From: an uncultured Lachnospiraceae bacterium
GTDB lineage: Bacteria > Bacillota > Clostridia > Lachnospirales > Lachnospiraceae
Length of the DNA: 32,505 bases
Assembly (NCBI GenBank): GCA_902766365.1
Contig: CACXDC010000052.1
Coordinates: 1-32,505 of the forward strand
Direction of reading: 5' to 3'
Part shown: piece by piece, positions 1 to 4,456 of the stretch
Numbering within the stretch: the first letter of the stretch is position 1
How the letters are laid out: every line of letters begins with the position of its first letter
Notes under the pieces: model-generated
The model's input: only the letters and a program-made list of their open reading frames with translations
What the model was told of the DNA's origin: nothing
Database searches by the model: none
Translations under genes and position numbers: made by a program

Positions 1-691
1 CACGCCCCATACCACCTTCATCCGGACTGATGACCATCATGTGGTCGGAGTCAAGCTGCAGATCATCTACGTTGCGGAGCAGGCCTTTGATAAACTGATA
101 GGTAGGCTGTACTGTTTCAAAACCATGCAGAGGAATCGCATTCTGTACACGGGGATCATGTGCATCGAAGGTGATGATATTGTCAACGCCCATACGTACC
201 AGTTCCTGCAGTGCCAGTGCACAGTCAAGGGATTCTCTTGCTGTTCTCTTGTGCTGACGGCTTTCGTAGAGGAAAGGCATGATCACAGTGATCCTTCTTG
301 CTTTACCGCCTACAGCAGCAATGATACGCTTCAGATCCTGATAGTGATCATCCGGGGACATGTGGTTTTCGTGCCCGCAGAGAGAATAGGTCAGGCTGTA
401 ATTGGCAACATCAACGAGAATATAAAGGTCTGTACCACGGACAGATTCCAGGATCATGCCCTTTGCTTCACCGGAACCAAAACGCGGTACCTTGGCTTTC
501 AGAATGTAGGAATCACGCTGATAACCAGAAAAGGCAAGGCTGTTTTTGTGCTCGCTTTCACGGACGGTCCTCCATTCTACCAGATAATCATCTACCTTCT
601 GACCGAGGGATTTGCAGCCCTCCAGGGGAATAATGCCCAGAGATCCTACAGGTATGGTCTCAAGATTTCTTGTTTCTTCACGTTGTGACAT
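1..691 (-). CDS. prs: Ribose-phosphate pyrophosphokinase (PRPP synthetase), partial, C-terminus outside window
   Basis: This gene makes PRPP from ribose 5-phosphate and ATP for nucleotide, histidine and tryptophan synthesis; it is cytosolic. The reverse strand reads open from an ATG at 689-691 to the window edge, giving 230 codons. Recognisable blocks are RGTDLYILVD (about residues 83-92), the ESRQHKRTARES region near residue 146, and FDAHDPRVQNA near residue 180, which match the PRPP synthetase N-terminal half. The N-terminal leader before the first block is longer than in E. coli Prs, as in the long clostridial form. The ribosome-binding site AGTGAGGA overlaps the end of the dnaI-like gene, and the gap between the two genes is only 8 bases. 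It is therefore the third gene of a dnaD-dnaI-prs operon. The rightward frame opposite it (41-688) is a shadow. Confidence 0.9.
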   Translation of the reverse strand, partial: MSQREETRNLETIPVGSLGIIPLEGCKSLGQKVDDYLVEWRTVRESEHKNSLAFSGYQRDSYILKAKVPRFGSGEAKGMILESVRGTDLYILVDVANYSLTYSLCGHENHMSPDDHYQDLKRIIAAVGGKARRITVIMPFLYESRQHKRTARESLDCALALQELVRMGVDNIITFDAHDPRVQNAIPLHGFETVQPTYQFIKGLLRNVDDLQLDSDHMMVISPDEGGMGR

Positions 692-699
692 GGGAGTCC

Positions 700-1671
700 T
701 CACTTTCTGTTCTGAAGTCTTTTTTTATACATCCGGATATCAGGTCCGGTTATCTTACAGATTTCGTAGTTGCTGGTGATCCTGGAAAAGATCCTGTCAG
801 AATAGCGATTCCGGAAATCCTCCAGTGAAAGATTAGTGGAAATAATAGTAGCTTTTTTACGCAGATGTCTGTCATTGATCAGTGAAAAAAGCTCAGAGGC
901 AATCAGATTATTGGTAAATTCTGTGCCAAGATCATCAATGATCAGCAGATCACTTTCGAACAGATCTCCATAGGAACTTCGGAGGTCATCACTGTTTCTG
1001 TAGTCAAATTTATATTTGGACAGCGTGTCGAAAAGTCCGGTGGCACTGAAATAGATCACAGAATGACCACTTTCAATCAACTCTTTGGCAATACAGCCTG
1101 AGAGAAAGGATTTGCCCGTACCAACTGTACCATAAAAAAAGAGATTGTGGTAGTCTGAATTAAAATTATTGATAAAGTTTCTGCAGGTAAGCACAGTGTT
1201 CCTGAACCTTGTCAGATCCTCTCCCTGATAGTATTCGTAGGACAGGGTGGAAAAATTCTCACTTTCCAGCATTTTGCGGATCCCGGACTGCTCATACAGA
1301 AGATCGATCTGCGCCTGCAGAAAACAATGACATTTCCTGCCATCGACATATCCGGTATCCTTACAGTCGGGACACTCATAGACCGGAGAAAGATAATCAG
1401 CAGGAAGACCGGCGTCTGCAAGGAGTGCTTCCTGCTTCCTGCGCAGCCTTGCAAGCTCCAGCTTCAGATCCTCCATGGCATCTTTGTTTCCGAGAAGAAG
1501 CTGTTTCCCCTGCCTGACAGAAACAGAGGCAATCTCATTTCTGACCTCCTGATAACCGGGGATATGTTTCATGACGTAAGCTGTCCGCTCTTCGAGAAGA
1601 TGACGGCTGTCAGTCTGTCTGGCTTCATAGAGCTTCATAATGGTTTCATACTGGGAATTGGTAAGTGCCAC
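700..1671 (-). CDS. dnaI: DnaI/DnaC-like replicative helicase loader (IstB-like AAA+ ATPase)
   Basis: This is probably the ATPase that loads the DnaB-type helicase at origins and restart sites. The 323-residue protein has a helical N-terminal part. A Cys cluster follows (C100, C103, C114, C116, with H115), consistent with a zinc-binding element as in Bacillus DnaI. The AAA+ domain has Walker A GTVGTGKS at 181-188, Walker B LLIIDD at 242-247 and a sensor-1-like STNLS. The start is GTG (1669-1671) with the strong ribosome-binding site AAAAGGAGCG. It lies 13 bases after the dnaD-like gene and 8 before prs, so the three are co-transcribed. Zinc element plus neighbouring dnaD argue for a chromosomal loader rather than an IS21-type IstB protein. 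Confidence 0.88.
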   Translation of the reverse strand: MALTNSQYETIMKLYEARQTDSRHLLEERTAYVMKHIPGYQEVRNEIASVSVRQGKQLLLGNKDAMEDLKLELARLRRKQEALLADAGLPADYLSPVYECPDCKDTGYVDGRKCHCFLQAQIDLLYEQSGIRKMLESENFSTLSYEYYQGEDLTRFRNTVLTCRNFINNFNSDYHNLFFYGTVGTGKSFLSGCIAKELIESGHSVIYFSATGLFDTLSKYKFDYRNSDDLRSSYGDLFESDLLIIDDLGTEFTNNLIASELFSLINDRHLRKKATIISTNLSLEDFRNRYSDRIFSRITSNYEICKITGPDIRMYKKRLQNRK

Positions 1672-1684
1672 GGGTACGCTCCTT

Positions 1685-2770
1685 TTAGTTGCTTAAGATC
1701 TCTCTTTCCAGAGTATCAAAGTCATAATCAGTGTGCATGAACTGATTGAACTGTCCGTTCTTTGGTGCAGTTTTAGCTGCCGGCTTCCGGGAATGGGCTT
1801 CATCCATGGTACGGATATCTGCCTTGTGCTTTACATGGTTTTCGTGCCAGCTTTTCAAAATGCTGTCAGCGTATTCGAAGCGGTGTCTGTCAGTAGCAAG
1901 AACAGTTCTTTCACAGGCTTCCATGATGATATCAGAAGTAAAACCATACTCCCGGACCCATTTCATGGCATAATCAGCTTCGGCCCTGGTCGGGGCAGAG
2001 GATTTGCCAAGAGCTTTCATGATATCATATACTGTCTTATCATATTTGGTGGCATATCTGGCTGCCTGTGCAGGTGTGGTAACACCTTCCTGTGCCCAGC
2101 TGATGGCCACCTTTTCTATGTAGCGGAAATCCTTCTTACCCTTTTCCACACAGTACTGGATCAGATAGTCGATCAGATCAACGGAGAAATGAAGCCTGTC
2201 TGAAAAGAAAAGAATGGTTTTCATTTCAGAGGCAGTCAGTGGTTTGCCGATATACTGTTCGGCAACGAAGATGATCTGGGAGGTTTCCTCATTATTTTTG
2301 AATTCTTTCAGCTCATCCAGAGAGTAGGAGGGCTTTGCAAAAGGGTCAGCCGTTTCAGAAACTGCTTTGGCGGCAGGATCTTCCGGGATACTTCTGTCTG
2401 GCATGTCCTTCTTGGAGACAGTAACAGGCATGGTAACGATTTTGGTCAGGGGAAGAACATCATTTTCCCTGCGGCTGGTTACATCCAGCAGACGAATGCC
2501 GCACAGAGCCTTGTCTTCACCATATTCCAGTGCGAGAAGGTTATTCTTTTCCCAGTACTTCAGTGCCCGCATCACATCTTTTTCGGTGTGATTAAACTTG
2601 TCCGCGATATCAGACACACTGGTAGCCTTATGTGCACTCATCATACGCAGAAGATATAAATAGATCTTAATCTGCGCATCATTGGCATCCTTCATATATT
2701 CATCAATAAATAAATTGGACACAATGGTGGTATCGGCATAGTTGTCCTGGTAAATAGTAAAACGACTCAC
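1685..2770 (-). CDS. dnaD: DnaD-domain replication initiation/primosome protein
   Basis: DnaD/DnaB-family proteins bridge DnaA or restart proteins to the helicase loader in Firmicutes. The 361-residue product has an N-terminal winged-helix-like region (about 10-90). A charged linker follows, then two DnaD-like segments. The first contains YIEKVAISW (around residue 217) and the second YADSILKSW (around residue 302); both fit the family's YxxxIxxxW signature. The start is GTG (2768-2770) with a modest ribosome-binding site (AGGGAT). It is first in the dnaD-dnaI-prs operon. A good promoter lies at 2822-2850 and DnaA-box-like 9-mers lie further upstream. It may be an ortholog of DnaD or a combined DnaD/DnaB-type protein; sequence alone does not separate these. 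Confidence 0.85.
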   Translation of the reverse strand: MSRFTIYQDNYADTTIVSNLFIDEYMKDANDAQIKIYLYLLRMMSAHKATSVSDIADKFNHTEKDVMRALKYWEKNNLLALEYGEDKALCGIRLLDVTSRRENDVLPLTKIVTMPVTVSKKDMPDRSIPEDPAAKAVSETADPFAKPSYSLDELKEFKNNEETSQIIFVAEQYIGKPLTASEMKTILFFSDRLHFSVDLIDYLIQYCVEKGKKDFRYIEKVAISWAQEGVTTPAQAARYATKYDKTVYDIMKALGKSSAPTRAEADYAMKWVREYGFTSDIIMEACERTVLATDRHRFEYADSILKSWHENHVKHKADIRTMDEAHSRKPAAKTAPKNGQFNQFMHTDYDFDTLEREILSN

Positions 2771-2821
2771 GTTTGATCCCTGCTCTCTGCTGTTTACATT
2801 TTCATTTTCAAAGCAAAGATG

Positions 2822-2850
2822 ATTATAGCATATGAAAAAGGAAATGCAAA
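2822..2850 (-). promoter_or_regulatory. Predicted sigma-A promoter of dnaD-dnaI-prs
   Basis: On the reverse strand TTTGCA (2845-2850) is followed by a 17-base spacer and a perfect TATAAT (2822-2827). A TGC just before the -10 makes it an extended -10. The expected start site is near 2815, about 45 bases before the GTG of dnaD. Confidence 0.65.
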
Positions 2851-2896
2851 CCTCAATTTTCCGGAAAACCCAGTATTTACAAGGGTTTCAGGACTT

Positions 2897-2923
2897 TGTG
2901 GACAATGTGGATAATGTGGATAG
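2897..2923. promoter_or_regulatory. Three abutting DnaA-box-like 9-mers
   Basis: Three 9-mers sit head to tail with no gap: TGTGGACAA (2897-2905), TGTGGATAA (2906-2914) and TGTGGATAG (2915-2923). The middle one is the exact complement of the consensus DnaA box TTATCCACA; the outer two each differ by one base. They lie about 45-75 bases upstream of the -35 of the dnaD promoter. An AT-rich stretch (2941-2990) follows on the right. Confidence 0.65.
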
Positions 2924-2988
2924 TTTATTGGAGGAGGAGAAAAACTATTGTAAAAAACAGGTAAAATCTACTTCTGTCATAAAAATAA

Positions 2989-3044
2989 ATATCCACATAA
3001 GGAAGAGGCTTTTACAGCTTCCAGAATGTGGATATCGTGGATAA
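2989..3044. promoter_or_regulatory. Second group of DnaA-box-like 9-mers
   Basis: ATATCCACA (2989-2997) is in the forward orientation. TGTGGATAT (3027-3035) and CGTGGATAA (3036-3044) abut each other in reverse orientation. Each differs from the TTATCCACA consensus by one base. The last box ends four bases before the murC stop codon. Together with 2897-2923 this makes six near-consensus boxes in about 150 bases of non-coding DNA. Confidence 0.55.
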
Positions 3045-3048
3045 AAAA

Positions 3049-4425
3049 TTATTTCAGAAGGTTTTCTCCGATTTTAACAACATCTCCGGCTCCCATAGTT
3101 ATCAACAGGTCACCGGGCTTACATTTTTCCAGGATAAATTTTTCGATAGAAGAAAAATCCGGGAAATAATAACAGGTTTTGCCAAGAGCTTCAATTTCTT
3201 TCTGAAGTGTTTCCGAGCTGATCCCAAGGTTATCAGTTTCCCTGGCCGGATAAATATCAGCAAGGATCACATAATCAGCATGGGACAGAGCCTTTGCAAA
3301 ATCCTTCATAAATGCCTTGGTACGTGAAAATGTATGCGGCTGGAATACACAGTACAGATCCTTATGGGGATAATTTGCAGCAGCTTTCAAAGTTGCAGTA
3401 ATTTCTGTGGGATGATGTGCATAATCATCTATTATAGTAATACCGTTGATACGGCCTTTATATTCAAAACGTCTGTCAGTACCATGAAAATCGGACAGGG
3501 CCTTTGCAGTAACAGATGGATCCACAGAAAGGAGGTTTGCAAGTGCAATTGCTGCGAGGGCATTCAGGATGTTGTGCTCTCCGGGAACAGACAGGGTAAA
3601 ACGTCCGCCGGGAATCCCTTCCTTCACTAAAGTAAAGGAGGCACAGCCCTTTTCGTCATAAGTAATGTCAGCGGCACTGTAGGTAAAGGAAGGATCCATA
3701 CCAAAGGTGATGATGGGACAGGCCACATCTGCGGTGATCCCGGAAAGATCGGAAATACTGCCGTTTATGATCAGTGCACCGTCAGAAGGAAGGAGCAGGG
3801 CAAAACGGTGGAAGGAAGAACGGATATCAGCCAGATCCTTGAAGAAATCCAGATGATCTGCTTCTATGTTAAGGATCAGACCGATCTTCGGATAAAAGCT
3901 TAGGAAGCTGTTGGTATATTCGCAGGCCTCTGTCACAAAGTAATCAGAATGACCGATCCTGATATTGCCGCCGATAGTCTTCAGGATACCACCGATGGAA
4001 AGGGTGGGATCGAGCTCTGCATGGAGCAGGATCTCAGAGATCATGGAAGTGGTCGTGGTCTTGCCATGAGTGCCGCTGATGGCAATGGGAAGCTTATAAT
4101 TCTTCATCATCTGTCCAAGGAGTTCTGCCCTTGTGAGAAGAGGAAGAGAAAGCTCTGAGGCTGCCTGCATTTCCGGATTATCCGGATGGATGGCACTGGT
4201 GTAAACAACAAGATCCAGGTCATCTGACAGGTTTTCACGTCGCTGGCCATAGAAGATATGGGCACCTCTTTTTTCGAGAAGTTCAGTCAGGGGAGATGGG
4301 CGCATGTCAGAGCCGGATATGGTAAATCCTTCATCTAACAGGATCTCTGCAAGACCGCTCATGCTGATGCCGCCGATCCCGATGAAATATATATGAATAG
4401 GGTGATGAAAATCGATCTGATACAT
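3049..4425 (-). CDS. murC: UDP-N-acetylmuramate--L-alanine ligase
   Basis: MurC joins L-alanine to UDP-MurNAc using ATP, the first peptide step of peptidoglycan precursor synthesis in the cytosol. The 458-residue protein has the expected N-terminal nucleotide-binding GIGGISMSGLAEIL (about 15-28), the Mur-ligase ATP loop GTHGKTTTTSMI (about 118) and DDYAHHPTEI near residue 334. The frame extends to a TTG at 4438-4440, but that codon lies within the ribosome-binding site GGAGG. The ATG at 4423-4425, 8 bases after GGAGG, is the sensible start. It is leftward and monocistronic here, with the DnaA-box region directly after its stop. Confidence 0.95.
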   Translation of the reverse strand: MYQIDFHHPIHIYFIGIGGISMSGLAEILLDEGFTISGSDMRPSPLTELLEKRGAHIFYGQRRENLSDDLDLVVYTSAIHPDNPEMQAASELSLPLLTRAELLGQMMKNYKLPIAISGTHGKTTTTSMISEILLHAELDPTLSIGGILKTIGGNIRIGHSDYFVTEACEYTNSFLSFYPKIGLILNIEADHLDFFKDLADIRSSFHRFALLLPSDGALIINGSISDLSGITADVACPIITFGMDPSFTYSAADITYDEKGCASFTLVKEGIPGGRFTLSVPGEHNILNALAAIALANLLSVDPSVTAKALSDFHGTDRRFEYKGRINGITIIDDYAHHPTEITATLKAAANYPHKDLYCVFQPHTFSRTKAFMKDFAKALSHADYVILADIYPARETDNLGISSETLQKEIEALGKTCYYFPDFSSIEKFILEKCKPGDLLITMGAGDVVKIGENLLK

Positions 4426-4456
4426 GGAAATAACCTCCAAATATAATTATACTGAT

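Follow-up and report, generated by a model that had tools for sequence, protein, structure and literature searches.

DnaA is known to act both as an activator and as a repressor of transcription (PMC8203912; PMC4447404). In Bacillus subtilis, clusters of DnaA boxes outside oriC (sda/yqeG, ywlC, ywcI/vpr, gcp-ydiF, yydA, and trmE) likewise comprise several intergenic boxes, and some of the clusters act on nearby promoters; the gcp-ydiF gap, which contains ten boxes, is a measured DnaA region (PMC4447404). Of the eight sets that DnaA regulates directly in B. subtilis, none includes a loader gene (PMC8203912), and none of its top 20 in vitro DnaA regions lies at dnaD, dnaB, or dnaI (PMC4447404), a difference from the locus described here. 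In C. difficile, the way in which DnaA activity is regulated has been described as unknown (PMC7561715).

The locus described here belongs to an uncultured Lachnospiraceae bacterium (GCA_902766365.1), whose draft genome amounts to 2.98 Mb in 260 contigs; the window, i.e., the whole stretch of DNA that was analyzed, is contig C52 (CACXDC010000052.1) with a length of 32,505 nucleotides. On the minus strand, the gene order is murC, an intergenic stretch, dnaD, a DnaI/DnaC-like gene, and a prs-like gene, and this order suggests that prs could be co-transcribed with dnaD-dnaI. When a box is defined as a 9-mer with at most one mismatch from TTATCCACA, six boxes are present at 2897-3044, as the sequence-only reading had placed them: five form two gap-free blocks (three plus two), while the sixth lies inverted between the blocks. 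Several near-consensus boxes within a short non-coding stretch outside oriC are characteristic of a DnaA-box cluster, and 2897-3044 has them. The features are as follows, in the direction of dnaD.

3049..4440, minus strand: murC, the upstream neighbor of dnaD
3027..3044, minus strand: array 1, two gap-free DnaA-box-like 9-mers (3027-3035 and 3036-3044) just past the murC stop codon; found by the near-match scan and conserved in the genus
2988..3036, minus strand: terminator-like hairpin, its stem formed by an array 1 box paired with the inverted box, with a T-rich tail at about 2980-2987; fold of -20.3 kcal/mol, z -4.71
2989..2997, plus strand: single inverted DnaA-box-like 9-mer ATATCCACA; found by the near-match scan and present in 26 of 29 genus loci
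2897..2923, minus strand: array 2 (promoter-proximal), three gap-free DnaA-box-like 9-mers CTATCCACA, TTATCCACA, and TTGTCCACA (boxes at 2897-2905, 2906-2914, which is exact, and 2915-2923); found by the near-match scan, and conserved, with its position in helical register relative to the promoter
2869..2885, minus strand: conserved element CCCTTGTAAATACTGGG, not a box, located between array 2 and the promoter, with the genus consensus CCCTTGNAAATACTGG, anchored on the -10
2822..2850, minus strand: predicted dnaD promoter with a weak -35 (TTTGCA, 2850-2845), a 17-base spacer, and the extended -10 TGCTATAAT (-10 hexamer at 2827-2822)
1685..2770, minus strand: dnaD-like gene with DnaB_2/DnaD domains
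700..1671, minus strand: DnaI/DnaC-like AAA+ ATPase gene of the helicase loader type
2..691, minus strand: prs-like gene of the phosphoribosylpyrophosphate synthetase family, truncated at the end of the window

The cluster thus reads, towards dnaD, as array 1, the hairpin, the T-rich stretch, array 2, the element CCCTTGNAAATACTGG, and the extended -10 promoter. This promoter had been described as a good one for the loaders, which holds for its extended -10 but not for its weak -35, TTTGCA.

Chance as a source of the boxes is ruled out by shuffles and near-match counts. Dinucleotide shuffling of 2897-3044, or of the whole intergenic stretch (2771-3048), yields two boxes at most, and six boxes are obtained in 0 of 2000, which bears out the earlier view that a chance origin of such density is very unlikely. 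The whole window contains 23 near-matches vs 8.59 expected, and exact TTATCCACA occurs 51 times genome-wide (reversed control: 9). Gap-free pairs with at most one mismatch in all occupy only three places in the draft genome, two of them overlapping at this locus and the third next to an hpf-like gene on contig C125.

A second or displaced replication origin had also been considered possible, dnaA and dnaN being outside the window, and the density of the boxes and their AT-rich surroundings speak in its favor. A search of the genome locates dnaA on contig C144, together with two box clusters and with neighbors that we take, from their sequence and order, to be dnaN, recF, gyrB, rpmH, and rnpA. 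The oriC boxes on C144 have same-strand spacings of 11, 12, 12, 21, 25, and 28 bp, none of them 9. In 8 of the 13 relatives searched (G300, G306, G268, G121, G174, G041, G082, and G221, single contigs being taken as circular), dnaA shares a contig with dnaD (or its array), at a distance of about 125-667 kb; the cluster at dnaD is thus not next to dnaA, as an oriC would be. Over the first 4.5 kb, in which the genes switch strand, the GC skew climbs from about 0 into positive values; only 2.9 kb lie to the left of the cluster. As an ordinary oriC adjoins dnaA on another contig, the cluster fits an operator and not an origin, and a second or displaced origin, which these locations do not support, is very improbable.

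The boxes upstream of dnaD are conserved in other Lachnospiraceae, a point that the sequence-only reading had singled out for checking. Within the genus, a match was obtained in 35 of 37 genomes, in some cases a short one, and 30 loci were taken; L053 was omitted because its upstream DNA runs off the contig. In all of the 29 readable loci, a gap-free run of at least two boxes precedes the promoter. The family sample consists of 73 dnaD loci from 73 other Lachnospiraceae genera, with the own genus left out; these loci are the even-numbered handles among the better-scoring matches listed that reach the N-terminus, so that the most divergent dnaD genes are under-sampled. Among these loci from the better-scoring matches listed, 67 have at least two boxes, 64 at least three, and 54 at least four, while five have no box in the stretch counted; the mean number of boxes in the last 300 bp is 3.64, vs 0.13 in shuffles. 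Boxes conserved next to the same promoter are characteristic of DnaA-regulated promoters, and the predicted dnaD promoter has them in 29/29 genus and 67/73 family loci.

A general Clostridia trait is not supported by dnaD loci or triple arrays outside Lachnospiraceae. In 20 dnaD upstream stretches outside the family, taken from the matches listed, the mean is 0.2 boxes, with no gap-free pair (gene starts were estimated from partial matches, and some stretches may be misplaced). The triple gap-free array is present in 0 of the 375 non-Lachnospiraceae genomes among 391 Clostridia genomes; three of the 391 matched, all of them Lachnospiraceae, with one match for the reversed control.

Beyond what had been noted earlier, two of the six boxes double as the stem of a terminator-like hairpin. 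Intrinsic terminators combine a stable hairpin at the end of a gene with a T-rich stretch behind it; such a structure is found after murC, and the inverted box and the hairpin are both kept in 26 of the 29 genus loci. A simple terminator scan restricted to short loops found none here, and an Rfam scan of 2500-3300 gave no match to a known RNA element. In three genus loci (L049, L051, and L054), the hairpin is gone and one gap-free array is kept, as if the two arrays had merged into one. Since the stem is built from one array 1 box and the inverted box, the boxes might be regarded as a mere by-product of the murC terminator. This is hardly conceivable: the terminator accounts for two of the six boxes, array 2 lies outside the hairpin, and a gap-free array survives without the hairpin in the three loci mentioned.

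The specificity of the arrays for one gene emerges from a gene-blind search, i.e., a pattern of three gap-free boxes applied with gene context ignored. In the genus, the triple array is present once in each of 28 of the 37 genomes, in all 28 cases beside dnaD (control: 0). In Lachnospiraceae, 57 of 299 genomes match the exact triple array and 242 are without it (control: 0); of 30 such loci inspected, 27 carry dnaD and murC. Of the other three, with genes assigned by eye, L076 presumably has its array upstream of dnaA, L091 next to an SH3/NlpC-P60-like gene, and L099 between an hpf-like gene and a secA-like gene. The species-genome collection contains at least 120 triple-array loci. Among the 120 matches listed, 79 precede dnaD by no more than 600 bp and share its strand, with murC also present in 78, and some of these dnaD-linked loci appear under the older names Clostridium and Eubacterium; the remaining 41 are without a dnaD match, and no Lachnospiraceae title occurs among them. 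Gap-free pairs in the genus are at dnaD in 54 of the 63 cases listed. At dnaD in the family set, the same-strand neighbor spacing is 9 bp in 116 cases and 12 bp in 22.

Gap-free arrays are also seen in other settings. Five of the 41 non-dnaD matches listed (L192, L210, L217, L223, and L241) are triple arrays from Paenibacillus and Cohnella, whose neighbor, judged by eye, is presumably an ABC-F gene resembling ydiF. Another recurrent DnaA-box cluster, which includes gap-free pairs or triples, is found at L022 (G000:C125, 5151-5221), L099 (near 1500), and L091 (near 1500), next to genes that we take by eye to be hpf-like, secA-like, or SH3/NlpC-P60-like. Lentisphaerae-type contigs (L186, L205, L230, L239, L240, L249, L266, L278, and L287) contain TCCACA-containing 9-bp tandem repeats, and several of them match the triple pattern more than once each.

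Two further readings concern the purpose of the cluster and the protein that binds it. The cluster could titrate DnaA, as proposed for box clusters of B. subtilis outside oriC, with the neighboring gene being incidental; a six-cluster deletion leads to early initiation in that organism (PMC5295017), and array 1 is variable in place. Nevertheless, 79 of the 120 gene-blind matches listed are upstream of the same gene, dnaD, and titration leaves the register of array 2 with the promoter unexplained, which makes it improbable as the main role and possible as a side function. The gap-free 9-bp spacing is unlike that of the boxes at oriC in this genome (11, 12, 12, 21, 25, and 28 bp) and could point to a protein other than DnaA. 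Such a ligand is improbable, given that the 9-mers equal DnaA boxes and that gap-free triple arrays also occur upstream of dnaA in L076 and beside the ydiF-like gene in Paenibacillus and Cohnella, ydiF being adjacent to the measured DnaA region of B. subtilis (PMC4447404).

The position of the arrays relative to the promoter was measured as the distance from the array edge to the -10 hexamer of the extended -10 promoter. In the genus, this distance is 69 or 70 bp in 28 of the 29 loci and 80 bp in the remaining one. The species-genome set, whose contigs had been selected for the triple array, provided 78 contigs with usable upstream DNA among the matches listed; 72 were measured, and six were dropped, as they had no extended -10 or no run. 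Among these 72 contigs from the matches listed, the distances are 48-49 bp (18 contigs), 57-60 bp (14), 68-71 bp (35), 80-81 bp (3), 85 bp (1), and 167 bp (1), so that 70 of the 72 are at about 49, 58, 70, or 80 bp, i.e., at whole helical turns. For the matches listed, the resultant length R at a period of 10.5 bp is 0.84 for array 2 (n = 72), compared with 0.08 for array 1 (n = 66) and 0.15 for the distance from the -10 to the start (n = 72), both of which served as controls. At 11 bp, R is 0.83 for array 2, and the controls rise to 0.35 (array 1) and 0.24 (-10 to start); at 9 bp, the values are 0.47, 0.13, and 0.15, respectively, again for the matches listed. Array 1 is thus out of register with the promoter. 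The spacing classes could also have arisen by gaining or losing single 9-bp boxes, which is disfavored in the species-genome set (matches listed), where R is 0.47 at period 9 vs 0.84 at 10.5, although these contigs had been selected for the triple array.

A quick murC tree covers 63 of the 72 contigs (among the matches listed), 61 of them in the four spacing classes and two fitting none. The classes are clustered on the tree, which requires at least 10 changes of class; its well-supported branches alone force 4, 3, 3, and 2 changes when the four classes are taken singly. In the 73-locus family sample (better-scoring matches listed), 61 loci are measurable, 11 being without an extended -10 and one without a box before the -10. 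The distance is 67-70 bp in 32 of these 61 loci from the better-scoring matches listed and beyond 120 bp in seven, while many of the rest are near whole-turn places and a few between. The register expected of a DnaA-regulated promoter is present, and it is less clean in the 73-locus sample, with 32/61 loci at 67-70 bp; some cases at 78-81 bp in this sample may be due to the loss of one box. With the -10 starting at -12, the array edges of the spacing classes fall near -62, -71, -83, and -93, similar to the positions from which CRP and other class I activators work.

Direct observations comprise the sites and their conservation, their specificity for one gene, their register with the promoter, and the hairpin fold. 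The best explanation of the whole, to which a probability of roughly 0.6 may be given, is that the cluster would be a DnaA operator of dnaD-dnaI(-prs) that activates via array 2, in a loop that is perhaps self-closing. An operator is the best reading because the sites keep one helix face relative to one promoter across Lachnospiraceae; DnaA would be the natural ligand, since the 9-mers match DnaA boxes, and activation is favored, as the array is located upstream and the -35 is weak. In this mechanism, DnaA would bind cooperatively along the gap-free triple array (2923-2897) and form a short row, whose promoter-proximal edge would lie, depending on the species, near -62, -71, -83, or -93 from the predicted start, in steps of about one helical turn. 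Bound at this site, DnaA would contact RNA polymerase along a single face of the helix and increase the transcription of dnaD from a promoter with a good extended -10 and a poor -35, and the levels of DnaD and the loader would then track free DnaA. Array 1, merged with the terminator-like hairpin of murC, would have an auxiliary or titrating role. DnaD could in turn weaken the cooperative binding of DnaA, so that the loop may close on itself and be negative; in B. subtilis, DnaD has been reported to inhibit the cooperative binding of DnaA (PMC5295017). Against this explanation count the five family loci with no box in the stretch counted, the 242 of 299 genomes that are without the exact triple array, the less clean register of the 73-locus sample, the clustering of the spacing classes on the tree with fewer changes forced by well-supported branches, the position of array 1 out of register, and the fact that the direct DnaA sets of B. 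subtilis include no loader gene. As to the DnaA-responsive feedback operator proposed earlier, its conservation and layout fit, and we infer the binding of DnaA, the activating sign of the control, the co-transcription of prs, and the loop.

The same operator could also serve repression: DnaA bound to array 2, possibly with a loop to array 1, would repress dnaD, and loader synthesis would then drop when DnaA is plentiful. Several B. subtilis genes seem to be directly repressed by DnaA (PMC4447404), and the fixed register would also suit a repressor that contacts polymerase or forms a loop. Repression is nevertheless rather unlikely, considering that the array is upstream of the polymerase footprint and not over the promoter, that the -35 is weak, and that array 1 is out of register, against what a loop might need.

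If activation by DnaA is retained, a broader proposal can be made tentatively. Throughout Lachnospiraceae, DnaA might activate the helicase-loader operon in the manner of a class I activator, acting via a gap-free three-box row on one helical face within a homeostatic loop that leads from DnaA to DnaD/DnaI (and PRPP supply) and back to DnaA, and the 9-bp repeat might represent a mode of DnaA assembly unlike that at oriC and made for transcription. If true, such a direct DnaA-to-loader circuit would tie the level of the loader to that of the initiator across a common gut family. As the natural spacing among relatives is near 49, 58, 70, and 80 bp, the claim is testable with a few promoter constructs.

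DnaA is already known as a transcription factor, and this kind of regulation is known as well. A literature search of titles and abstract starts did not find DnaA boxes upstream of dnaD in Lachnospiraceae; the target, the Lachnospiraceae-wide conservation, the gap-free array, the register, and the overlap with a terminator look new within the literature searched. In E. coli nrdAB and Caulobacter dnaB/dnaQ, DnaA likewise tunes genes for precursor supply or the replisome; these are other genes in other lineages, and the boxes upstream of Caulobacter dnaB/dnaQ are described as predicted (PMC8203912). At sda of B. subtilis, the boxes likewise lie upstream of a promoter, which is activated there by DnaA (PMC4447404), but the target is a sporulation checkpoint gene and not a helicase loader.
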